From: Candidatus Cloacimonadota bacterium
GTDB lineage: Bacteria > Cloacimonadota > Cloacimonadia > Cloacimonadales > TCS61
NCBI GenBank assembly: GCA_018400535.1
Contig: JAGYMQ010000130.1
Span: 1-42,053, forward strand
Length of the DNA stretch: 42,053 nt
Direction: 5' to 3'
The position numbers and the translations under genes are program-made. Below the pieces are notes generated by a model. The model searched no databases. It saw only the letters and a list, made by a program, of their open reading frames with translations, and was not told the DNA's origin. Of the stretch, positions 15,017 to 40,702 are shown one piece after another; the stretch's first letter is position 1; the number at the start of each line of letters is the position of its first letter.

Positions 15017-15790
15017 TTATCTATTCAGACCACGATCGGTATTTTCAATAAATTCAATAAATGTTTTTTGCTCGTCAGATAATTTCGTAATTTTTCGTGC
15101 TTCTTTCAAAGCCTCAGAAAAATTCAATCCTGAATGATAGAAAATTTTATAGATACTTTTTATGTTTTTGATCTGTTGTGAACTAAAACCATTTCGTCTC
15201 AATCCAATACTATTTAAGCCAATGATTTTGTAAGGAAATCCTTCACCTCGAGTGAAAGGTGGAACATCTTTTTTCACACCAGATTTCCCGCCAATGAAAG
15301 CAAATTTGCCCACGCGAACAAACTGATGGATCGCTACCATGCCACCGATTGTAACATTGTCATCAATATGAATGTGACCGGCAAGGTTCACTGCGTTGGC
15401 GATGATCAAATGATTTCCAAGCTGGCAATTATGTGCGACATGAGAATAGGCCATCAATAAATTATCGTTTCCGATCCTGGTCTTTTCTTCCAGAGTGGCG
15501 GATCGATTGACCGTGCAAAATTCACGGAACGTATTATTCGACCCGATCACAAGTTCTGTTGGTTCTCCCTTATACTTCAAATCCTGACAATCCGTTCCGA
15601 TAACTGCTGAATGAAAAAATTTGTTGTTATCACCGATTTTTGTCGGTCCTTCGATCAAGACATTTGAAGCAAGGTGATTGTTATCTCCTAATTCCACATT
15701 TGGTCCGATAATGGAAAAAGCTCCGATCCTACAATTATTTCCGATTTTGGAATTTTTATCGATGATTGCTGTAGGGTGGATATTTTCCAT
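15017..15790 (-). CDS. lpxA: Acyl-ACP--UDP-N-acetylglucosamine O-acyltransferase (lipid A step 1)
   Basis: This 257-residue left-handed beta-helix enzyme transfers an acyl chain from ACP to the 3-OH of UDP-GlcNAc. It shows the hexapeptide repeat pattern from residue 4 (IHPTAIIDKNSKIGNNCRIG) and the catalytic His120 in SHVAHNCQLG. GGMVAIHQFVRVGKFAFIGG and the GLNSIGLRRNGFS hinge before the C-terminal helices are diagnostic of LpxA rather than LpxD. The length is close to that of E. coli LpxA. It is the last gene of the leftward lpx operon, 3 nt after lpxC/fabZ. Confidence 0.95.
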   Translation of the reverse strand: MENIHPTAIIDKNSKIGNNCRIGAFSIIGPNVELGDNNHLASNVLIEGPTKIGDNNKFFHSAVIGTDCQDLKYKGEPTELVIGSNNTFREFCTVNRSATLEEKTRIGNDNLLMAYSHVAHNCQLGNHLIIANAVNLAGHIHIDDNVTIGGMVAIHQFVRVGKFAFIGGKSGVKKDVPPFTRGEGFPYKIIGLNSIGLRRNGFSSQQIKNIKSIYKIFYHSGLNFSEALKEARKITKLSDEQKTFIEFIENTDRGLNR

Positions 15791-15793
15791 GAA

Positions 15794-17185
15794 TTATTTT
15801 TCCACTATTTTTGCTAAGAAATCACCTTCACAAACTTTATTATTTGCCACATAAGCATCACCATGCATTTTTGCCAAACCTCTTTTCATCGAGATCACTT
15901 TCAATTCCATCCGCAAAGTATCGCCTGGTAAAACTGGTTTGCGGAATTTCACATTATCAATTGAAGCAAAATATGCAACGTGTTCACTTGGTTCTTCCAA
16001 GGCATTCAAAAGCATGATGCCACCTGTCTGAGCCATCGCTTCCACGATTAGAACGCCTGGCATCACTGGATGTTCAGGAAAATGTCCCTGAAAAAAAGGT
16101 TCATTGATAGTCACATTTTTCAAGCCAACAATACTTTCTCCTACTTTGAATTCGATGATTTTATCAACTAACAGAAAAGGATAGCGATGTGGAAGAATTT
16201 TTTGGATGGCCGTGATATCAAAAACGATCTCGTCTAATTTTTTCTTTTGGTATATTCGCTGTAAAACTTGTTTTTTGTGGATATTACGTAATTTTTTCAC
16301 CAATTCCACATTTGTTTTGTGACCAGATCTTGCGGCCAGTATGTGTCCTTTGATCGGAACGCCCAGAAGCGCAATATCACCGAGCAGATCAACCACTTTA
16401 TGCCGCACGAATTCATTATAATAGCGCAATGGTGTGTGATTCAGCAAGCCATCAGATCCCACTTCAATTTCACCAGAATATTGGAAGATTTTTTTCAATC
16501 GCTCTATTTCTGATCTTGGTGTTTGTGGATCGGCTACCACCAGAGCATTTTTTAGCGAACCACCTTTGATGAGCCCGGCTTTCTTTAATTCAATGATCTC
16601 GTGAAGAAAACAGAAGGTACGGGCAGAAGCAAATTCTTCTTCAAAATATTTCAGAGAAGGAAGCCAGGTATATTGTGTGCCAAGAGCCTTTTGTTTATAA
16701 TCGACCATAAAAGTAACTTTCAGGCTGTCTGAAGGGACGATCACAATATCGACATTATCGGCAGGTGAAGAATAGGAGATAGCTTCTTCGATCTCCATAT
16801 ATTCTCGTTCGGAATCTTGTTCTTTCAGACCGATCTTTTTGAGCAGTTCCAAAAAAACGATTGCACTTCCGTCTGCCACGGGGACTTCAGGACCATCGAC
16901 CTCGATCAGAATATTGTCGATATTCAAGCCTTTGATCGCAGCGAGGACATGTTCGATCGTGGCAACTTTTGCTTCTTTGATCCCGATCGTAGTGCCGCGC
17001 GAGATATCGATAACATGATCAATATCAGCTGGAATTTCTGGTTTTCCTTTCAAATCAGTGCGCACAAATTTGATACCGGCATCTTTGTCTGCTGGACTGA
17101 AAGTGATCGTGGAAATTTTTCCAGAATGCAGTCCAATTCCTTTATAACTCACTTCTCCTTTGATAGTTTTTTTGAATTCTTTCAT
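15794..17185 (-). CDS. lpxC/fabZ: Bifunctional UDP-3-O-acyl-GlcNAc deacetylase / 3-hydroxyacyl-ACP dehydratase
   Basis: This is a 463-residue fusion. Residues 1-305 are LpxC, the zinc deacetylase that commits to lipid A synthesis: GIGLHSG near the start, EHVLAA with zinc ligand His79, [10 protein letters not shown] with His262 and Asp266, and SGHKTN with His289 as the catalytic histidine. Residues about 315-463 are FabZ, the fatty acid dehydratase: [14 protein letters not shown], then [12 protein letters not shown] with His368 and E382 in VEAMAQ. The same fusion is known from Bacteroidetes and related phyla. The start overlaps the lpxD stop by 4 nt (ATGA). Both halves keep their active residues, so both should be functional. 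Confidence 0.96.
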
Positions 17186-18222
17186 GATCCATCCTTTTTT
17201 TGTCTTTTCCTCAGATCTCGCACCAGCTCGGGTAAATGCTTTTCTGAAATGAGAATCCGCTTCATCTCACCAGCTTCTTTTGCTGGTGTGCCAAAAAATT
17301 TTTTCTTTTTTGGAACGTAGGTCATCACGCCAGATTGAGCACCGATCAATGCATTATCATCGATTTTTAGATGACCAGCAACTCCGACTTGACCGGCAAG
17401 ATAGACATTATCTCCGATTTCTGTGCTGCCAGCAAGACCTGTTTGTGCGCAGATAATTGTATTTCTTCCGATCTTGCAATTATGACCGATCTGCACCAGA
17501 TTGTCGATCTTTGTGCCTTCTCCGATAACTGTAGAACCTAAAGTAGAGCGGTCTATTGTTGTATTTGCACCAATTTCCACATTATTATGAATGACTACAT
17601 TTCCAACTTGTGGAATTTTGTGATGCTGATTTTCATGAAAAAGATAGCCAAAGCCATCAGCTCCAATCACGCTTCCAGAGTGGATTATCACATTTTCACC
17701 GATCTGAGAATCATTGTATATCGTACAATTTGGATATAGGATCGTTTTTTCACCAATTATAGTATTTTCCTGGATCACGCAATTTGCTCCGATCTTTACT
17801 CCCGAAGCGATTTTTACATTTGCTCCGAGCACACAATTGGCTCCGATCGTTACATTCTTATCAATTTCTGCGGTTTCAGCAATTTGTGCAGATTTTGAGA
17901 TTTTATGCTCAAGATCAGTTTGATCGAGAGATAACCATTTTTTCACAAATTCCATAAAATAAATATATGGCTTTTCGACAAAGATCAGATTTGTATTTTG
18001 TTTTTGGGTTGGATCAAAATCAAGCGGGACGAAGATCAATCCAGCTTCAGAATTTTGCAGAGCGTCAAAAAATTTATTATCTTGATAAAAACATACTGAG
18101 TGTGAATTTGCTTCTTTCAGTTCGGCCACGTTATCCAATTCTTTATTATTAATGAGCAAGTATTTTTTGTCGAGTTGATCGATGATCAAACGTGGTGATA
18201 AGGAGCGAGCAAACTTTTTCAT
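17182..18222 (-). CDS. lpxD: UDP-3-O-acylglucosamine N-acyltransferase
   Basis: This 346-residue enzyme adds the second acyl chain to the deacetylated glucosamine in lipid A synthesis. The N-terminal ~100 residues are the uridine-binding domain. Long hexapeptide repeats follow ([20 protein letters not shown] onward), then [10 protein letters not shown], the LpxD signature, and catalytic His247 in [10 protein letters not shown]. The C-terminal helix ([20 protein letters not shown]) is typical of the family. It overlaps ompH by 4 nt upstream and lpxC/fabZ by 4 nt downstream. Confidence 0.95.
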
Positions 18223-18743
18223 TCTTCGATCGTTTGTTCTAATTCATCGATAATCTTATCGGTGATATCCAGACTTGGTTTTGCATATAGAATGCTGCCA
18301 GCAGCAGCATCGAGAACGATTGTATAGTTATTTTCGATCGAGACTTTTTCGATCACATTTTTCAATTTTGCCAGAATTGGTTCCAAAAGCTCATTTTGAC
18401 GTTGATAATATTTTCCATTTTCACCAAAATATTCTTTGACCTTATCTTGTCTTTTATCTTGCAATTGGGTGATTTTTTCTTCAGCTTCTTTTTTGCTGTC
18501 TTCACCCATGATCAATTTCCTGCTTTCATATTCATTTACCAGTTCTTCAATTTCTTGTTCCAGATCGGTTATTTCTTTTTCCCATTTCTGACGATCATTG
18601 AGCAAAGAGGTCTGAGCTTCTTGAGTTTCCGAGCTTTCCATCACTATCCTATCAGTATCGATATATGCTATCTTCAATTCTGCAAAAACCACAGAACAAA
18701 CAAATAAGGCGAGCAACATCAAGATCAATTTTTTTCTAAACAT
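18219..18743 (-). CDS. OmpH/Skp-family periplasmic chaperone
   Basis: This protein of about 174 residues has a signal peptide ([21 protein letters not shown]). The OmpH hallmark [14 protein letters not shown] follows, then a long Lys/Glu-rich coiled coil (about residues 40-110), and a C-terminal strand [17 protein letters not shown] as in Skp. Skp/OmpH proteins hold unfolded outer-membrane proteins in the periplasm. An in-frame ATG seven codons upstream exists, but GGAGG at 18748-18752 sits right before the ATG at 18743, so that start is chosen. It leads the lpx operon, an arrangement common in diderms (skp-lpxD). Confidence 0.88.
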
Positions 18744-18903
18744 TTTTCCTCCAGAATTTTCCATTTATAAACCGTTTCAAAAATTACTTGTATCAAGTCA
18801 ATAAAAAATCTATTCCAAACTACATTTTGGAGAATATTTTTATCTCAATCTGATCAATTGAAAATATTATTTCAATAAATTTAAATTAGCGATCAACAAA
18901 AAT

Positions 18904-18932
18904 TTGACAATGAAAATCTTTTTGCAAATTTG
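18904..18932 (+). promoter_or_regulatory. Candidate promoter for the PorU-like gene
   Basis: TTGACA (18904-18909), then 15 nt, then CAAATTTG (18925-18932), which matches 7 of 8 positions of TAnnTTTG. The predicted start lies around 18939, just before the GAGGA ribosome site (18941-18945) and the ATG at 18950. The spacing equals that of the candidates before dnaX and before the repeat/HEAT gene. The leader would be very short, which weakens the call slightly. Confidence 0.4.
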
Positions 18933-18949
18933 ACTTTAAAGAGGAATTT

Positions 18950-21900
18950 ATGAAAAAGTATTATATCAATGTTCTAATGGTCTTTCTTTCTCAATTATTA
19001 TTCTCTGAGCTCAAGATCATTTCTGAAACTAAAGACCAGCTTATCATCGAGGTTTTGAATGAAGATTTTCAGTTCATAGAAACGGATGATCATTTTTCGA
19101 TCGAGACATCAGAATGGCACAGTGATTTGCAACCTGGCGCACCTGATCTTCCAGGTAGGATCATCAATATTGCTCTGCCGCCTTCTGGGAATTTACGTAT
19201 CTCAAAATTGAGACAAGAGATCGAAACGATTTATTTTGATAAGCCAATTGCTCCTGTGCCAAAGATCATCGAAAATTCTTCTACTCATGATTTTATCTTT
19301 CAAATCGATGAACAAAAATATTTGGAACGACAGGCAGTTTTGGAAAAAATGGAAAAAGCATATTATCGTTTTTACGAATACATCTCGATCAAGATCATCC
19401 CTTTTCAATATGATCATGTCCAAAAAAAGCTCACGATCATTACAAGCTTGAAATTCCAGATTGATATTCTAGGCGAAAAATCTCATCGTGGTCGGATTAA
19501 TGACAATTTTGAGAATATTTACCAAAATCTCTTTTTAAATTTTCATTCGGCGCAAAACTGGCAAGATTGGAAACCGATCAGCTATGAAAAAATGCCTTTT
19601 TCCAGTTCTCAATTCTGGTATCAATTTGCTGTCAAAAATGGTGGAATGCAGCTGATCGATGAAAAATCACTGTCAATTTTACCAGATTTTTATGATCCAA
19701 AAACTGTTCGATTGTTTTCAATGTTCAAACAAGATGAAAAGGCGAACCATCATTTTGAATTAAAGGAAATTCCGATCTCAATTCAAAGATCGGGGATTTA
19801 TTTTAAGCATCAAAATAAGGTAGAAAAAAAATATTCGAAAGCTCATTTGTATTGGTTAACTTTTGGCGGAGATTTTTCTTCTGAACCAAAAAGAAAAAAA
19901 TTCACTGAATTACACCAAGCTCGACAGATCGAAAAACTGACCAGAAAAGATGTTGCGTTCACGCAGATTCGCACGGCGCCGCACGGCATCATCATCTATC
20001 CAGATGAAAATACTTTCCAAACACAGGCTCAAAGTTATGCTGATCTTTATCCAGAGCTGAATTTTTTTCTGAAAAGTCAGCAAGAAATATTCGCTGAATA
20101 TAGCGCGGGCAATCCCGATCCGCAGGCGATCGAAGATTTTTTGCAAGAAAAATACACCGAATATCCAGATATGCTCGAATATGTTATTTTAATGGGTTCT
20201 GGAACAAATAATTGGAATGAACCATCTGATAAGAACAAGATCATTTTCTTTCCAAATTCTGATGATGAATTCGTGAATTTTAATAATGCTTATCTCGCAC
20301 AATTGATCATCGGAAGGTTTCCAGCTCGGAATAATGAAACTCTCGATCTTTTGTTAAATCGCTTGGAAAAATATATTTATGAGCCCATTTCAGGTTTCTG
20401 GCGAGACCAGATGCTGATCATGGCAGATGATGAAAACAAGGGTGGATATTATGAAGGTTTTTCTGCTGGTCTGAATCACGGCAATTTGGCACAGGAAACT
20501 TCAGAATTGATCAATGAAAATATCATCATCGATAAAATTTTTGGTTTCAACTATGATTTTGATGAATTCCAGAATAAACCAGCAGCCCGTGATGCTATGA
20601 TCAATGCAATTAATAAGGGACGATTGATCTGGTATTATATTGGACATGGCAATCCAGAAGTTTTGGGTGACGAAGATTATTTCCGTGGTAATCTGCATGT
20701 CAATCTTTTGCAGAATGGCGAGAAACGTCCGTTATTTGTAGCAGCTTCTTGCAGCGTGGGACAATTTGACGATCCGGGTATTGATTCTGTAGCAGAGAAA
20801 GTCCTCTTTGCTGAAGATGGCGGAGTGATCGCTTCTATTGCTGCGACGCGCAGAACAGGCGGCAGCAATAACACGACTTTGATGAAATATTTTTTCCAGA
20901 ATATTCTTAATGATGATCGAGAAAATGTTAATATTGGAAAAGGTTTGTTGCAAGCGAAAACAGAATATACAACCGGTCAATCAAATAGCTATTATTACAA
21001 TATTTTAGGTGATCCTATCCTGAAAGTTCTTCCACCACAAAACGTTGGCTCTATTTCAGCTCTACCCGATACATTATTTGCCAGAGAAAATATTGACTAT
21101 ACGGGTTATTATGGCGATCAATTTCAATTGAATGGAAACGGTCTGACACAAATCTTTGAACCTGAACAGGAACTTGTTTATGTGAATACAAATTACGTTC
21201 AGAATGATACTTTTTTTACTGTGAATTATACAGAAGAAGGCAAACGACTTTATAACGGTGAAATAAATATTTCGCAGGGAAATTATGAAGCAGAATTTAT
21301 CGTTCCAGATGAAGTCAATGACGGCAGTAGCGGAAAAATATTAACCTACATTTTTGATGAATTTTCAAAAAAAGATTATCTTAATTCTGCTCTGCACTTG
21401 AATTTTAGTTCTATTACGCAAGGTGAGCCTGATTTGAATCCACCTCAGATCAAGCTCTTTATCGATTCCAAAAAATTCAAAGCTGGTGATTATGTTTCCA
21501 GCAATCCGACTTTGATCGCAGAAATTGAAGATGAGAATGGCATCAATATACTGGGGAATGCTGGTCATGGCATTCTGTTGATCTTAAATGAAGAACAAGA
21601 ACCAATTGACATTACAAGCGGGTTTGTTTACAAAAATGGCTCGAGCACAAAAGGTGAATTAAGCTGGCAATTACTAGATCTGAGAGAAGGTCATCATCAT
21701 CTGAAATTAATTGTCTATGATAATCAAAATAATTATCAAATTGCTGAAACAGATTTTATTACTCGGACGTCAGAAAAAGTCTCGATCGAAAAATTATTGC
21801 CCTATCCAAATCCGATGCAAAAAGATGGATATCTCACTTTTATCATCACAGAAAATTCTGATGTGACAATTTCGATTTATACGATTTCTGGGAAAAAGAT

Positions 21901-22075
21901 CAGAACGTTAGAACATTTTGGATTGGAAAAAGGATTCAATAAGATCTATTGGGATGGAAAAGATGACGTAGGAGATGGGATCGCTAACGGCACATATTTT
22001 TACAAAGTCAAAGCGACACAATTGGACAATGAAAAAAAATCTGAAAAGATAGGTAAATTGATCATTTTGAAATAA
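18950..22075 (+). CDS. porU: PorU-like type IX secretion sortase, C25 peptidase family
   Basis: This 1041-residue secreted protein has a signal peptide (about residues 1-19). A beta-rich propeptide-like region (20-330) contains the LQPGAPDLPGRIINIALPPSG motif area. The gingipain-type C25 caspase-like domain (about 340-705) has the catalytic dyad His566 in YYIGHGNPE and Cys601 in VAASCSVGQFDDP, and ends at YYYNILGDPILKV. Next comes the beta/Ig region typical of PorU (NGEINISQGNYEAEFIVPDE; ENGINILGNAGHGILLIL). A FlgD-like C-terminal domain (about 945-1041) starts at LLPYPNPM and ends KLIILK. In Bacteroidetes, PorU removes the C-terminal sorting signal of type IX cargo and links the cargo to anionic LPS, and PorU itself has such a domain. 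The architecture supports PorU over an ordinary gingipain-like protease, but this has not been checked by phylogeny. Confidence 0.78.
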   Translation: MKKYYINVLMVFLSQLLFSELKIISETKDQLIIEVLNEDFQFIETDDHFSIETSEWHSDLQPGAPDLPGRIINIALPPSGNLRISKLRQEIETIYFDKPIAPVPKIIENSSTHDFIFQIDEQKYLERQAVLEKMEKAYYRFYEYISIKIIPFQYDHVQKKLTIITSLKFQIDILGEKSHRGRINDNFENIYQNLFLNFHSAQNWQDWKPISYEKMPFSSSQFWYQFAVKNGGMQLIDEKSLSILPDFYDPKTVRLFSMFKQDEKANHHFELKEIPISIQRSGIYFKHQNKVEKKYSKAHLYWLTFGGDFSSEPKRKKFTELHQARQIEKLTRKDVAFTQIRTAPHGIIIYPDENTFQTQAQSYADLYPELNFFLKSQQEIFAEYSAGNPDPQAIEDFLQEKYTEYPDMLEYVILMGSGTNNWNEPSDKNKIIFFPNSDDEFVNFNNAYLAQLIIGRFPARNNETLDLLLNRLEKYIYEPISGFWRDQMLIMADDENKGGYYEGFSAGLNHGNLAQETSELINENIIIDKIFGFNYDFDEFQNKPAARDAMINAINKGRLIWYYIGHGNPEVLGDEDYFRGNLHVNLLQNGEKRPLFVAASCSVGQFDDPGIDSVAEKVLFAEDGGVIASIAATRRTGGSNNTTLMKYFFQNILNDDRENVNIGKGLLQAKTEYTTGQSNSYYYNILGDPILKVLPPQNVGSISALPDTLFARENIDYTGYYGDQFQLNGNGLTQIFEPEQELVYVNTNYVQNDTFFTVNYTEEGKRLYNGEINISQGNYEAEFIVPDEVNDGSSGKILTYIFDEFSKKDYLNSALHLNFSSITQGEPDLNPPQIKLFIDSKKFKAGDYVSSNPTLIAEIEDENGINILGNAGHGILLILNEEQEPIDITSGFVYKNGSSTKGELSWQLLDLREGHHHLKLIVYDNQNNYQIAETDFITRTSEKVSIEKLLPYPNPMQKDGYLTFIITENSDVTISIYTISGKKIRTLEHFGLEKGFNKIYWDGKDDVGDGIANGTYFYKVKATQLDNEKKSEKIGKLIILK

Positions 22076-29974: not shown

Positions 29975-32900
29975 TTATTTTATATTTTGCAATAATTCTT
30001 CCACTGCTCTTTGCAATTGTGCGTCTTCGTCGTTGATGATCTGCTTTGGAGTAGGTTCTACCAGAATATCTGGCTCGACGCCACTTCCTTCCATATTTTC
30101 TTTCTGTAATGTGAACCAGCCATGAGATGGCATGCGCATACCAGATCCATCCATGAACCGAATATGACCGGTTCCGATGACAGATCCGCTTGTCGGCATT
30201 CCGACAACTTTTCCCAGTTTCAGTTCTTGGAAAAGTGTGGGAAATATTTCTGCGTCGGAAAAGGAATTTTCATTGATGAGAACGATCATCGGTTTGTCGA
30301 TTCTTTCTGATGGTGTTTTATAGGTTTCTGCTCCGAAGATGCGAGAACTGCTGAGAGCATAGGGTTTTCTGGTCAAAATTTCGATCAAAAGGTCATGCGT
30401 GTAGCCCCCGCCATTATTTCGCACATCAATGATCAAGGCTTCTTTATCCAGATTTTTGGTGAAAAGTTCCTGATAAAATTTCCGATAGCTGGAAAAATTC
30501 ATCCTGCGAATGTGAACGTAGCCAATTTTTCCCTTAGATAATTTTTCTGTTTTCACTCTGCGTTCTTCCACCCAATTTTCATAGAAAAGATCATAATTTT
30601 CTCGGTAACTCAAACCTTTTATCGTAACCGTCTTGTAACCATCTTTGATTTTGAAGAACAATTTAATTTCGTCACCTATCTTGTCTCTCAATAATTGTCT
30701 GAGCTTTTTCCCTTTTTCAACGTTGATGCCATCGATGGAAAGCAAAATGTCGTCAGCTCTGATATTATTAGGATTTTTCAGTTTTGAATTATTGTAAACT
30801 TTTTTTATCCTGATCCCATTTTCAGGAAAATCTTGATAATCAAATTCACAACCCAGATATGCGGAATAGAAATATTTGTGTTGTTCGTCTCTTCTTGGAT
30901 AAAATCCTGTATGAGAGGCATTTACTTCTCCGATCATTTCTTCTATTATCCAGTCCAGAATTTGTGGGTCTTCTATATATTCCACATATTTCAGGAAGCG
31001 CTTTTTGATCTTTTTCCAATCTTTGCCGTGCATTTCGGGATCATAAAAATTCTTACCGAAATATTTCCAAGCTTGCAAAAAAATATTTTCGTTCAAAGCC
31101 TTTTTGTTATAAGAATATTTGAATTCAAAGGAAACAATTTCTGATGATTTCTGATTTACATTAAATTTGCTGATCTGCATATTATTCAGGAAATAGAAAG
31201 CGTCATTTTCTGGATTGAAAGTAATATCTTCAGGTCTTTGAGCAAAAGTGTGGATCATTTCATCATTTTCACCTTTATAATCTGTTTTCCTCAAAGTATA
31301 TTTATCATCAGCAGTATTCAAATAATAAAAAGTTGAATCATTGATAACGTGAAGAACTTCATTATAACCAGTTCTTTTGACTATTGGCATAAGGCGTTCT
31401 TGAATATTTTTCAGATCAATTTCTAAAGGACTGGAAGTTTGTTCATTTTCTTTTTTTTGTGCTTTATCGTTCAGTTCTGGTGCAAAAATTTCCTGCCAAT
31501 GATTTTCCTTATCATAAAAATCTTCTTTTGCTTTCAGATCAATCCGATAAATATTTCCTTCTCTGGAAATGAATGCTGTCTTGCCATCCTTTGCCAGAGC
31601 AAAATCGCTCAGATAACCATTGAAATCATAAAGAGAATAAAGTTCTTTTTGCTCGAAATCATAGCAATTAAGATGCCGACTCCAGATATTTTCCTTCAAC
31701 TCGATAAAAAAACCGTATTTTTTCTGAGGAGATAATTGCAAAGAGCTCCACACATATTTTTCTGTGATCAGCGGCTTGATCTCGTTTCCCATACTATCTG
31801 CCATTGCTAACTTATGATATTTATCATCTTCAGAATAATTGATAAAAAGATGGCCATTACTGAAATTCATAAATTCAATATATTTGTCTTCCGACCATTC
31901 CAATTTTTCAATATTTTCCACATTACGAATGTCAACGCGAAATAATTGCGGAGTTCCATCAACAAAGCTGGAAAAAGCGATTGTGCGATCATCTCCCAAA
32001 ATAACGATGTCATTAATTCCTAGTTGATTTTTGGTGATCTGCAGAACTTTGTCGCCTTTTTCAGGAAAAGCAAAAAGGTCAAATTTGTAAGAAAAAACGA
32101 TCAATTTTCCATCTTGTGAAATTCTAAATTTATCGGCTTTGTTGTGAACATTTTCCAGCGTGATATGATCATCCAGAATATCTTGCTTGATCTCAATTTG
32201 TAGCTTTTCAGCTTTTTGGGTAGCACTATCCCAAGTCCATAACTCATCGAATTTTTCGAAGACTATTCGATCTGTGTTTTTTGCACAGGAAATATCACGA
32301 ACCGACCAGGTTTTAAAATTTGTTAGAAATTGTTTTTTGGGAAGCTCATCGATCTTTGCTCTGCATAACTGGAAAACATTTCCATCAGAAGCGGCAAAAA
32401 ATATCTGGTCTGGATTTTGTGAAAAAGTGGGATAATTCTCGGTCAGATCGGTTTTTGTTAATCTGGAAAATTTATCGTCATCAATTTCATAGAGCCATAA
32501 ATCTCCATTGAAAGAGCCTTGATAGGCTTCTCGATAGCGCAATCCGCGGCGGTCAAACAAAATTGTGTTTCCACGATTGGAAATCGTTGCATCATTTCCA
32601 CCAAAGGGAGTGATCTCATTGAATTCACCGTCTAATTTTAAACGAAAAAATCTATTGCGGAAATGGGGATCACCTCTTCTCACCAGTAATTCTTTTCTTT
32701 TGGGAAACCAATCATTCAAATAGAAATTTTCTTTGGAGATCGGCTTGGCTTCTCCGCCTTCAGCAGGCAGCAGATAAATTGCGGTCCAACCATTGCGATT
32801 GGAATTGAAGGCTATATTTTTTCCATCAGGAGAAAAGACAGGATTCCAATTTGTTCCTTCTGAATCTGTGATGCGTTTGGCTTCACCACCTGAAAAAGGA

Positions 32901-33043
32901 ACAAGCCAGAGATCATCCAAATATCTAAAACAGATCGTTTCTCCATCGGGTGAAATGGCAGGATGTTTCATAAAATGCGGCTCGAATGCCACAAGCGAGA
33001 ACGTCATTACGATAAGAATTGTGAACGTTGACCAGAATTTCAT
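29975..33043 (-). CDS. Secreted tricorn-type protease, S41 family
   Basis: This 1022-residue protein has a signal peptide (about residues 1-19). The N-terminal half (about 25-560) is a beta-propeller of PD40/WD-like repeats (HPAISPDGETICFRYLDDLW; WNPVFSPDGKNIAFNSNRNG). A helical domain with His711 in NASHTGFY follows, then a PDZ domain (about 740-820, IRADDILLSIDGINVEKGK), and the S41 core with catalytic Ser929 in SDAEIF and VVGMPTSGSVIGTG. This order matches the tricorn protease of archaea and its bacterial homologues, which trim oligopeptides, but here it is exported. The stop of the repeat/HEAT gene lies 8 nt upstream, so the two are co-transcribed. Length and catalytic residues appear intact. 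Confidence 0.92.
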   Translation of the reverse strand: MKFWSTFTILIVMTFSLVAFEPHFMKHPAISPDGETICFRYLDDLWLVPFSGGEAKRITDSEGTNWNPVFSPDGKNIAFNSNRNGWTAIYLLPAEGGEAKPISKENFYLNDWFPKRKELLVRRGDPHFRNRFFRLKLDGEFNEITPFGGNDATISNRGNTILFDRRGLRYREAYQGSFNGDLWLYEIDDDKFSRLTKTDLTENYPTFSQNPDQIFFAASDGNVFQLCRAKIDELPKKQFLTNFKTWSVRDISCAKNTDRIVFEKFDELWTWDSATQKAEKLQIEIKQDILDDHITLENVHNKADKFRISQDGKLIVFSYKFDLFAFPEKGDKVLQITKNQLGINDIVILGDDRTIAFSSFVDGTPQLFRVDIRNVENIEKLEWSEDKYIEFMNFSNGHLFINYSEDDKYHKLAMADSMGNEIKPLITEKYVWSSLQLSPQKKYGFFIELKENIWSRHLNCYDFEQKELYSLYDFNGYLSDFALAKDGKTAFISREGNIYRIDLKAKEDFYDKENHWQEIFAPELNDKAQKKENEQTSSPLEIDLKNIQERLMPIVKRTGYNEVLHVINDSTFYYLNTADDKYTLRKTDYKGENDEMIHTFAQRPEDITFNPENDAFYFLNNMQISKFNVNQKSSEIVSFEFKYSYNKKALNENIFLQAWKYFGKNFYDPEMHGKDWKKIKKRFLKYVEYIEDPQILDWIIEEMIGEVNASHTGFYPRRDEQHKYFYSAYLGCEFDYQDFPENGIRIKKVYNNSKLKNPNNIRADDILLSIDGINVEKGKKLRQLLRDKIGDEIKLFFKIKDGYKTVTIKGLSYRENYDLFYENWVEERRVKTEKLSKGKIGYVHIRRMNFSSYRKFYQELFTKNLDKEALIIDVRNNGGGYTHDLLIEILTRKPYALSSSRIFGAETYKTPSERIDKPMIVLINENSFSDAEIFPTLFQELKLGKVVGMPTSGSVIGTGHIRFMDGSGMRMPSHGWFTLQKENMEGSGVEPDILVEPTPKQIINDEDAQLQRAVEELLQNIK

Positions 33044-36934: not shown

Positions 36935-39900
36935 TTATTTTAGAAGAATGATTTTCTTCGTGCTCGTATAATCGGAATCTCCGTCGTCAGCCTCGAAGAT
37001 GGAAAAATAAACTCCGCTTGCTGCATTTCTCCGGTTTTCATCTTTTCCATCCCAGATCATTGAATGATAACCGGCTTCCATTTTTTCGCTGATAAGGGTT
37101 CTGACTTTTTGTCCTTTGATGTTATAGATCTGCAGATTAACTTTTGCTCTTTTTTTCAAGCTGAATTTGAAATTCGTAGTCGGATTGAAAGGATTGGGAA
37201 AATTACCATTGAATTCAGTTACTGCTGGAAGAATATTGTTTGCATCTGTAGCGGTAACAGTCATCATTATCGGGATGATCGTCTGTTCTTCCAGATAATA
37301 ATCGACGATCAAAGCGCTGGAATAATTTCCCGGTTCTAAGTTGGCAGGATCAAAGGTCAATTCGATAGTTTCTGAACTGCCAGTAGCAATATTTCCAGCA
37401 TCTGGTTCATAACTCAGCCAGGTTGGAATATTGGTCGTAGAAATTTCATAATCCAAAACATCTCCGCCGATATTGGAAAATTCTAGCTCAAAAACTTCTG
37501 TTTGATTGGCTGGCACTTCCACGTTCACGATATTTGGATCAACGTGTAAGATGGGCGGAAAGATCGCACCAAGAGATGGGAACACAACAAAATCCACTCT
37601 TGCGCAATCCGTCCCCCCACTAACATAAGTATCCTTTTCATAACGCCATTCGAAGACGTGTGAGCCAGCAGCAACATTATAGGATTCTTCTGCCCAGCCT
37701 TCGTCGCCTGACCACTGTCCCATCATATTATTATCGATATAAAATTTGAGATAATCATAGTTTGCTTCTGAAGATACTGTGCGCCAGAATTTTATTTCGC
37801 TATCGTCGATCACATCGACTTCGATCTTGAGACCGGTTGTGGAAAGGTTTCCAATATTTCCTGAGCGAGCGCAATACAAACCTTCATAAGCGCCATCTGA
37901 GATGATCCAATCTGCATCGCCGGTAAATTCCCAGGGAAAATTGGAAAAATCACCGGTTTCAAAATCTTCTTTGATGAGACCGATAGAATGATCGAAACTA
38001 GTTTGATACATATAGCTGCCTGAAGTGAGGATCACATCAAAATCTATGATCGTTCCCAGTTCGATGCTGCCATCAGCGATCACGTTGAAAGCACCATTAT
38101 TTTGATTTTGTGCTGGGATCAATCCGACATTCAACAAGCTTGGTTCGATCGTGATCAGATCATTATCGGTGGATAATCCAATATAAGTATCGGGCGACAG
38201 ACTATGTCCAATGTTTTCAATTTGCAGGATCATAAAGACATCTTCGCCGGGATCGAGAATGCCATTGGCATTTCCAGCAGAGTCATCAACGAAAATTTCT
38301 CCCAAAGCAAATTCTGGGGCGTTTAACGTCAAAGTGAAATAGGAATTCCAGATCTCACCGCCAGTATCAGTGATCTCCATCGTAAAGAGCACTTCATATT
38401 GATCAATAATATCATCAGCGACTTCGAAAGAAAAACCAGCTGGCATATTAGAAATTGCTTGAGCGCCGATATTGCCATAATTTTCTAAACTATCCAGCAG
38501 CGTGATATTGTCATCATTGCAGATCAAAACGGCTTCAATACCGTTTGCTGGTTGATTTCCCACATTTTTCAAAGTGATGTCCAGAGCTATTGTTTCAGCA
38601 TAATCTACCAATCCATTTCCATTTCCAGCAGAATCATCAATTTCAACAGCATTGAAGATCACGTAGGGCTCATCAGAAACAACTACCAGATCTCCGCTGT
38701 ATGGAAGTTTATTGTGGGCGATGATAGAAACTTGAATCGGTTCAGCAGTAGTGATCGGCTCATAGGTTGTAATAGTCGCATCTCCATTTTCATCAGCGAT
38801 GGCTTTTCCGATCAATTCATCATTTTGGATAAGCGCAATTTGAGCAAAAGGTGCATCTGTTTGGAAACTTACTTGATCTGCTCCGACCGAAATGCTGGGT
38901 GGATAGATCGCAGTTATTTCGTCAGGTTCTGCCGTCCACATATCCAGAGAAGGGTCGCCAAAAAGATTCAATTGATAATGCACCCAACGATAATTATCGT
39001 CAGTGCAATATGGAGCAGCGTCATCTTTGGCATCATTGTGCATCATTCCGACTTGGAAAAGGTTTTCGCCGAAACTGGCATCGAAAAATTGTCTATCATA
39101 ATATTGGGAGCTGGAATTTGTGCCACCTGGCATATACCAGCCATATCTGGAATTTGCCACAAAAACAGCACAGCCATTTTGAATTGTTGTAAATTTTTCT
39201 ATGATACAATTATCATCAAAAGCAGCAGGATAACAACCTTGAGAATAGGCAACGAAAAAATTGTGATTAATGCCATTTGCAGTAATATTCTGGTCAGTTA
39301 CAGACCCCATATAAAGTTTCATATTATAATCTGTGTTAGAATGTCCAAGATGATTAAGAAAATTCACGCCACTGTTCAACGCAGAAAAAAGATGATTTGA
39401 ACCCCAATAAAAATCACGATCATAAAGTGTTTCCACATTAATATTTGGCGAAATCGCTTCAGTGTAGTACCCGTTGTAATTTCCACCATCGGCGATCTCA
39501 TCTTTATAATCTCCACCCCAGGTTTGTGGATCATCATTTAATTCTTCTCCGACCATCAGTGCATTTTCCAGATCACTCACCACAGGACTTTCCTGATACA
39601 TAATTTGTTTATTCAGCGCATTTTGGATCTCGGTTGCGTCGTCTCCTGAAATCCTTCCCAGATAAATTTCGGAATAGTAATCTGCTTCTGAATGTTCGCC
39701 CCAATAGGAGTTATCATTTGTATTCCAATCTGGTCCATTGCCATTACCCACACGATCCAATCCGGAAAAATAGATATCAGCAGGTATATTATAGTCCGTT
39801 GTGCCATAGCTATCTACATAGAAACCGCGATAGGGCACGATATTTGTGTCGCCGCCCAAAAGAACATAATCTGTGCCATTTTCCTGATAAGTATATTTGA

Positions 39901-40702
39901 TAAAATTTCTCACTTTTTCGGCATTATCTTCACCAGGATATTCAGCATAGATATCTTCGACGGTTTTTATCAGCACGCTGTAGCCTTGAGAAGTTTTGAA
40001 AGCGATAAAATCATTGAATTCATTCACATAAGAATTTCCAGTAATGATCACATAATCATAGATTTCGTCTCTTTCACGATTTTGGATCGGATAGCGAGAA
40101 AGAAGTTCGGGATTTTGTACCAGATTGTTTATTTTTTGATGAGTGATTGGGTCGTTTCGCAGAAAATTTTCCAGATCGAAACGTGTTTTTCTGGTCTCGA
40201 TCTTGATCGTGAGCTTTTCGAAATATTGGATCTTTTTTGTGACAGGGTTGTATTGGAGCGGATAAATGTGGAAATTGGCGATCGAATGTCCTCGCAAGAA
40301 TTGAGTATTGATATTTGTGTTAAGCTTTTCAGGGAAAAATTTATTTGAATTATAGATATCTTTATCTGGTTGGATAAAATCTACTTTTCCTTTGTAGCTT
40401 AGAGGGATCGGTTTTTGTTGTGGAATAATATTATATTCTTCTGAAAGCAGGATTGGTTGAGAAGTTTCGATCGATATGGAAGTTGCGGTGTGCCCGAAAG
40501 GTAATAGGATCTGGATTGCTTTGCTTGGTATTTCAGGTTGTCCCGGTGCAACGATTGATTGCATATCATCGAAAATTATTCGGTGATAATCATCTGTTTC
40601 GATGATTTTGGGCGTCTCAAAATCGAGAAAATGCTCGATATTATCTGCAAATAACAGGGTATTTATCAATATTCCAAATACAACGATTAGTTTTAGCTTC
40701 AT
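36935..40702 (-). CDS. Secreted gingipain-like C25 peptidase with sorting domain
   Basis: This 1255-residue protein has a signal peptide (about residues 1-19) and a propeptide-like beta region (20-205). A C25 domain (about 209-600) starts DEIYDYVIITGNSYV, with DYVLLGGDTNIVPYRG, the catalytic His454 in NHLGHSNTDY and Cys490 in AYSQGCYPAAFDDN, and ends LNLFGDPSLDMW. About 300 residues of CARDB-like repeats follow, for example DDSAGNGNGLVDYAETIALD and DDSAGNANGILDPGEDVFMI. Next come a MAM/choice-of-anchor-type lectin-like region (EDFETGDFSNFPWEFTG, about 905-1050) and a BACON-like Ig domain. The FlgD-like sorting domain starts NFPNPFNPTTN and ends KKIILLK. It is therefore a likely type IX-style cargo protease acting outside the cell. 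GAGGT precedes the ATG, and a strong terminator follows the stop. Confidence 0.9.
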   Translation of the reverse strand: MKLKLIVVFGILINTLLFADNIEHFLDFETPKIIETDDYHRIIFDDMQSIVAPGQPEIPSKAIQILLPFGHTATSISIETSQPILLSEEYNIIPQQKPIPLSYKGKVDFIQPDKDIYNSNKFFPEKLNTNINTQFLRGHSIANFHIYPLQYNPVTKKIQYFEKLTIKIETRKTRFDLENFLRNDPITHQKINNLVQNPELLSRYPIQNRERDEIYDYVIITGNSYVNEFNDFIAFKTSQGYSVLIKTVEDIYAEYPGEDNAEKVRNFIKYTYQENGTDYVLLGGDTNIVPYRGFYVDSYGTTDYNIPADIYFSGLDRVGNGNGPDWNTNDNSYWGEHSEADYYSEIYLGRISGDDATEIQNALNKQIMYQESPVVSDLENALMVGEELNDDPQTWGGDYKDEIADGGNYNGYYTEAISPNINVETLYDRDFYWGSNHLFSALNSGVNFLNHLGHSNTDYNMKLYMGSVTDQNITANGINHNFFVAYSQGCYPAAFDDNCIIEKFTTIQNGCAVFVANSRYGWYMPGGTNSSSQYYDRQFFDASFGENLFQVGMMHNDAKDDAAPYCTDDNYRWVHYQLNLFGDPSLDMWTAEPDEITAIYPPSISVGADQVSFQTDAPFAQIALIQNDELIGKAIADENGDATITTYEPITTAEPIQVSIIAHNKLPYSGDLVVVSDEPYVIFNAVEIDDSAGNGNGLVDYAETIALDITLKNVGNQPANGIEAVLICNDDNITLLDSLENYGNIGAQAISNMPAGFSFEVADDIIDQYEVLFTMEITDTGGEIWNSYFTLTLNAPEFALGEIFVDDSAGNANGILDPGEDVFMILQIENIGHSLSPDTYIGLSTDNDLITIEPSLLNVGLIPAQNQNNGAFNVIADGSIELGTIIDFDVILTSGSYMYQTSFDHSIGLIKEDFETGDFSNFPWEFTGDADWIISDGAYEGLYCARSGNIGNLSTTGLKIEVDVIDDSEIKFWRTVSSEANYDYLKFYIDNNMMGQWSGDEGWAEESYNVAAGSHVFEWRYEKDTYVSGGTDCARVDFVVFPSLGAIFPPILHVDPNIVNVEVPANQTEVFELEFSNIGGDVLDYEISTTNIPTWLSYEPDAGNIATGSSETIELTFDPANLEPGNYSSALIVDYYLEEQTIIPIMMTVTATDANNILPAVTEFNGNFPNPFNPTTNFKFSLKKRAKVNLQIYNIKGQKVRTLISEKMEAGYHSMIWDGKDENRRNAASGVYFSIFEADDGDSDYTSTKKIILLK

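Follow-up and report, generated by a model that had tools for sequence, protein, structure and literature searches.

In Porphyromonas gingivalis, which offers the closest described system, cargo of the type IX secretion system (T9SS) is joined by PorU to anionic lipopolysaccharide (A-LPS) that PorZ delivers to it (PMC8545088), and the synthesis of A-LPS has a dedicated WbaP transferase (PMC7468200). Outside the Bacteroidota these systems are little studied. For Cloacimonadota, the only statement found is that such systems "may also be present" (PMC11285876), and a literature search on Cloacimonetes with type IX secretion found nothing. The subject here is a 42,053-nucleotide stretch of Cloacimonadota DNA (the window), in which a gene for a PorU-like protein stands head to head with a lipid A operon. 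The window is a contig of a metagenome-assembled genome of 2.62 Mb and 95.7% completeness (contig C130 of genome G000), and it was compared with genomes of relatives (labelled G001 and onwards), those of its own family within the order being designated f1. From this arrangement a sequence-only reading had proposed that cargo anchoring and lipid A supply could be linked outside the Bacteroidota. New in the present comparison are the identification together of a sortase, translocon, shuttle and putative glycan-delivery protein in Cloacimonadota, with the sortase placed by a tree; a PorU in f1 that is short of some 200-240 residues; and the location of porZ in a surface-polysaccharide cluster.

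PorU and its type IX partners

Profiles, phylogeny and predicted fold all point to the same identity for the open reading frame on the forward strand: it is very probably the PorU orthologue of a T9SS, with the Cys/His dyad kept. Its features are as follows.

18950..22075, + strand: probable porU orthologue, 1041 residues, T9SS C-terminal signal peptidase/sortase (NF033707, C25 tree, Foldseek match to 6za2)
19118..19546, + strand: Propeptide_C25, residues 57-199 (PF08126, 36.6 bits, cut-off 22)
19988..21028, + strand: Peptidase_C25 catalytic domain, residues 347-693 (PF01364, 219 bits)
20645..20647, + strand: codon of catalytic His566, invariant in 41 aligned PorU
20750..20752, + strand: codon of catalytic Cys601, at least 90% conserved in the 41 PorU
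21047..21769, + strand: all-beta immunoglobulin (Ig)-like region, residues ~700-940 (AlphaFold2 confidence, as predicted local distance difference test or pLDDT, mostly 85-95; aligns to the same region of 6za2)
21803..22021, + strand: T9SS type A C-terminal domain, residues ~952-1024 (TIGR04183, 30.6 bits, cut-off 23)

Every part of the architecture first read from the letters (propeptide, C25 domain with His566 and Cys601, Ig region and C-terminal domain) was recovered, the last also as a FlgD_ig/Por_Secre_tail match at residues about 952-1029 in a profile scan, and both catalytic residues are invariant in an alignment of 13 Cloacimonadota PorU. The best sequence match in the PDB is P. gingivalis PorU (6za2, 5.5e-30), with the gingipain RgpB at 8.9e-6. 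Likewise, an AlphaFold2 model of the protein (mean pLDDT 87.8, predicted template modelling score 0.82) retrieves 6za2 first in Foldseek (7.5e-38), and gingipains next. In an IQ-TREE phylogeny of 64 C25 domains under a mixture model, the window protein falls with P. gingivalis PorU, 18 PorU of f1 and 15 from other Cloacimonadota at a support of 100/97; RgpB lies among the other C25 proteins of the genome, one of which is its partner at 100/99.

That the protein is no sortase but one of the ordinary gingipain-like proteases, secreted and bearing a T9SS tail, might be suspected from the 21 C25 domains of this genome, many of them in tail-bearing proteins, and from the lack in the f1 protein of a domain found in canonical PorU. 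Tree, hidden Markov model (HMM) and fold nevertheless all place the protein with PorU and RgpB with the other C25 proteins, and the order of genes around it is conserved across f1, so that an ordinary C25 protease was rejected as very improbable. The same tree assigns to the ordinary C25 proteases, not to PorU, a second C25 protein of the window (36935-40702, - strand, 1255 residues), composed of a propeptide, C25, a Peptidase_C25_C Ig domain, a HYDIN-type Ig domain and a T9SS tail.

The remainder of the genome supplies partners expected of a PorU. A SprA/Sov translocon protein of 2020 residues scores 511.8 bits (cut-off 200), and SprA is present in all 37 good-quality genomes searched. The PorV shuttle, of 402 residues, is encoded next to an M6-like tail-domain protein and scores 231.9 bits with PorV_fam (cut-off 90), 91.1 with PF19572 (cut-off 27) and 172.3 with the PorV equivalog. 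Matches to TIGR04183 number 91 tail domains across the genome. Together with a PorZ-like protein, considered below, these findings bear out the expectation that further type IX genes would be present if the C25 protein were indeed PorU. As far as sequence comparison can establish it, the T9SS outside the Bacteroidota is real, though incompletely defined.

Several observations weigh against this identification. The window PorU lies 2 bits under the cut-off of the equivalog NF033707 (418.1 bits as a protein and 406.3 in the genome search, cut-off 420, with profile positions 355-1095 only matched), and PorV and PorZ both score under their own equivalog cut-offs. The tree includes RgpB as a fragment and P. 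gingivalis PorU on a long branch, and the global template modelling score of the Foldseek match to 6za2 is low (0.25), probably because the PorU domains are differently placed. PorP was not found in the window's genome by profile search, which gave weak fragments in relatives only. GldL and GldM were likewise undetected in the genome, with models that had no positive control and matched nothing in any genome searched, the control genomes included, the GldM model failing even in Ignavibacteria-type genomes with porU-porV, so that these null results do not show the two proteins to be absent.

A run of genes elsewhere in the genome (L089:490-9911, contig C12) comprises receptor-, ExbB-, two ExbD- and TonB-like genes, the last three names being given from sequence appearance, followed by a 998-residue protein and a PorV/PorQ-family gene; it would be a candidate for the energiser should the GldLM motor prove to be lacking.

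The shortened PorU of one family

Comparison with longer homologues indicates that f1 PorU has lost a domain of ~200-240 residues between the propeptide and the catalytic domain. PorU is about 1028-1098 residues long in f1, compared with 1277-1387 in other families of the order where complete and ~1312-1380 in most Ignavibacteria, Calditrichota and others. The difference is concentrated between the propeptide and C25, which are separated by 136-165 residues in f1 versus 387-401 elsewhere; in the alignment, a block of 200-212 residues is missing from all seven f1 sequences and there in all six others. In the window, this point is as follows.

19919..19924, + strand: point where the block is missing, between residues 324 and 325 (alignment of 7 f1 and 6 other PorU)

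A canonical PorU from a sister family aligns with 6za2 through the region missing in f1. The loss accounts for both the partial match to NF033707 and the shortfall against its cut-off, a cut-off that the PorU of relatives G011 and G013 exceed.

The canonical PorU of other Cloacimonadota families (G035-G058) belong to the same clade, share 31-38% identity and have the same dyad; they differ from the f1 protein in their length and in their gene neighbours, as in a sister family (G041, L076:2652-13475), where porU, coaX and sprA form one run. In the window's genome, too, coaX lies upstream of sprA (L087). P. gingivalis PorU shares with the window protein a C25 domain with His and Cys, an Ig-like region and a C-terminal T9SS domain of its own. 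Compared with it, the window protein is without the ~200-240-residue domain, has a detectable Propeptide_C25 and is encoded away from porV. Some f1 genomes also have short PorU-related paralogues of 614-632 residues (L108, L109, L110), nested in the f1 PorU clade.

Gene order around porU and the lipid A operon

On the other side of the divergent pair lie four genes of the reverse strand.

15017..15790, - strand: lpxA (profile score 353.2 bits, curated cut-off 226)
15794..17185, - strand: lpxC-fabZ fusion (NF009667, 628.9 bits, cut-off 465)
17182..18222, - strand: lpxD (385.9 bits, cut-off 207)
18219..18764, - strand: ompH/skp homologue (PF03938, 111.8 bits, cut-off 32.4)
18765..18949, no strand: divergent intergenic region between ompH and porU, 185 nt

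The genes of the operon are tightly packed, consecutive ones either overlapping by ~4 nt or standing 3 nt apart. Positions and strands agree with those given by the sequence-only reading, and the gap that it put at about 200 nt is the 185-nt region listed above. A promoter shared by porU and ompH was rejected as a candidate, as promoter-like sites at 18500-19100 are no commoner than in shuffled sequence (2 observed, 2.4 expected by chance).

Whether this neighbourhood is conserved depends on the breadth of the comparison. Within f1, 19 loci have enough upstream sequence to be informative, and ompH-lpx is divergent from porU within 6.3 kb in 16 of them and missing from this position in three. 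The two are 94-717 nt apart, with no gene between, in seven of the 16; in the other nine, xanthine dehydrogenase-like (xdhAB) or tail-domain genes are inserted, so that no promoter can be shared there. Elsewhere in the order, none of 13 loci from other families shows the synteny, lpxC being on another contig or far off; beyond the phylum no locus has porU beside ompH-lpx, and most have porV next to porU. The pair is conserved within f1 and not beyond it.

The other flank of porU provides a useful measure of what such conservation means. At about 25 of 29 loci, the window being an exception, it carries fusA, yebC, ruvC, ruvA and rsmB (names that, like xanthine dehydrogenase, were assigned by the look of the sequences and not by an HMM scan). 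Since these translation and recombination genes (fusA-yebC-ruvC) stay beside porU no less reliably than lpx does, a gene order inherited by common descent accounts for both flanks. The head-to-head arrangement is accordingly best read as an order inherited at the level of the family, and by itself it does not argue for any tie to lipid A, whether in function or in regulation.

A stronger interpretation would hold that anchoring requires a supply of lipid A or lipopolysaccharide, and that this need keeps porU and the lipid A operon side by side, coordinated through a shared divergent promoter. Such an interpretation has in its favor the frequency of the divergent arrangement in f1, the uninterrupted pairs among these loci, the joining of P. 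gingivalis cargo to A-LPS delivered by PorZ (PMC8545088), and the genome G002, from the window's genus, in which a porZ glycan cluster directly abuts lpxA-ompH-porU on one stretch of contig. This last arrangement, however, is that of one genome, and the interpretation must also accommodate the restriction of the synteny to f1, the different usual neighbor outside the phylum, the interruptions in 9 of 16 loci, the equal conservation of the fusA-yebC-ruvC side and a promoter signal not above that of shuffles; we consider it quite unlikely. The adjacency of porU and lpx, family-limited, interrupted and no better kept than fusA-yebC-ruvC, does not sustain the reading that anchoring is tied to the provision of lipid A, and it should not be taken as function.

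Another possibility is that ompH, and not lipid A, is the meaningful neighbor. In Flavobacterium johnsoniae, a trimer of the Skp-family protein SkpA is a structural part of the translocon; it binds both SprA and SprE, normal export by the T9SS depends on it, and its P. gingivalis counterpart PGN_0300 is also implicated (PMC10994853). By analogy, porU-ompH would pair a sortase with a translocon subunit, and the OmpH of the window both adjoins porU and is the sole member of its family detected in the genome. Yet in most families of the order the lpx operon begins with ompH, with porU near or not, so that its position is explained without the T9SS; this role for ompH is unlikely. Inherited family-level order thus remains the preferred account of the head-to-head pair.

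PorZ, PorU2 and surface-polysaccharide clusters

A nearer genomic sign of a link between anchoring and glycan supply, and a better one than the adjacency of porU and lpx, is provided by porZ. The PorZ-like protein of the window's genome (contig C77, L226:8375-10783) is 802 residues long and is built of propellers and a T9SS tail, as is PorZ of P. gingivalis, whose structure (5m11) is the top PDB match of its profile. It scores above the cut-off with PF21544, and it and five relatives match the PorZ equivalog NF052228 at up to 169.7 bits (E 1e-49, cut-off 260). Six Cloacimonadota genomes are PorZ-positive, five from four genera of f1 and one from family f6, and every one of them has porZ within a surface-polysaccharide cluster (L226-L231). 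The gene directly upstream of porZ encodes an initiating sugar-phosphate transferase, which belongs to Bac_transf in four genomes and to PF00953, an unrelated family, in the other two; in most, a flippase, glycosyltransferases and a dehydroquinate-synthase-like gene follow. In the Ignavibacteria-type genomes G060 and G062, by contrast, porZ stands among housekeeping genes. That porZ keeps its place while the type of transferase changes argues for function more than plain synteny does, and its position makes the surrounding genes a concrete candidate for those that synthesize the anchor glycan. The proposed connection between anchoring and glycan supply outside the Bacteroidota accordingly loses its footing in the lpx adjacency and gains a better one here.

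A second, related arrangement occurs on contig C71 of the same genome (L086:3082-12799), where genes for a PorU2-like protein of 1667 residues, a PorV2-like protein, a lipoprotein, an SLBB protein and Wzc form a run with ispE-prs-rplY-pth. The run is largely conserved in the ten other genomes sampled from several families of the order (L234-L243), its SLBB-Wzc part being missing in G039. PorU2 (NF052324) resembles PorU in being a related C25 protein with propeptide and tail, but it forms a separate clade (100/100) and is encoded beside a PorV2-like gene and the SLBB/Wzc polysaccharide-export genes.

By analogy with P. gingivalis, tail-domain cargo would cross the outer membrane via SprA and be carried by PorV to PorU, whose Cys/His dyad would cut off the cargo tail; PorU may then link the freed C-terminus to a surface glycan that PorZ presents. 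The sequences themselves show the orthology, the conserved dyad, the T9SS partners, the loss of the domain and the gene order, whereas transpeptidation, the chemistry of the anchor and the role of PorZ in this scheme are what we infer from that system. Considered together, the porZ clusters and the PorU2-PorV2 run with SLBB/Wzc raise the possibility, put forward tentatively and with considerable doubt, that the T9SS attachment machinery of Cloacimonadota is built into surface-glycan clusters, with cargo joined by a shortened PorU, possibly without GldLM, to a species-specific O-antigen or capsule. A literature search on the T9SS together with Wzc and PorZ found nothing.

Elsewhere in the window, a tricorn-like protease of 1022 residues (29975-33043, - strand) combines a PD40 propeller with Tricorn_C1, PDZ and S41 domains.

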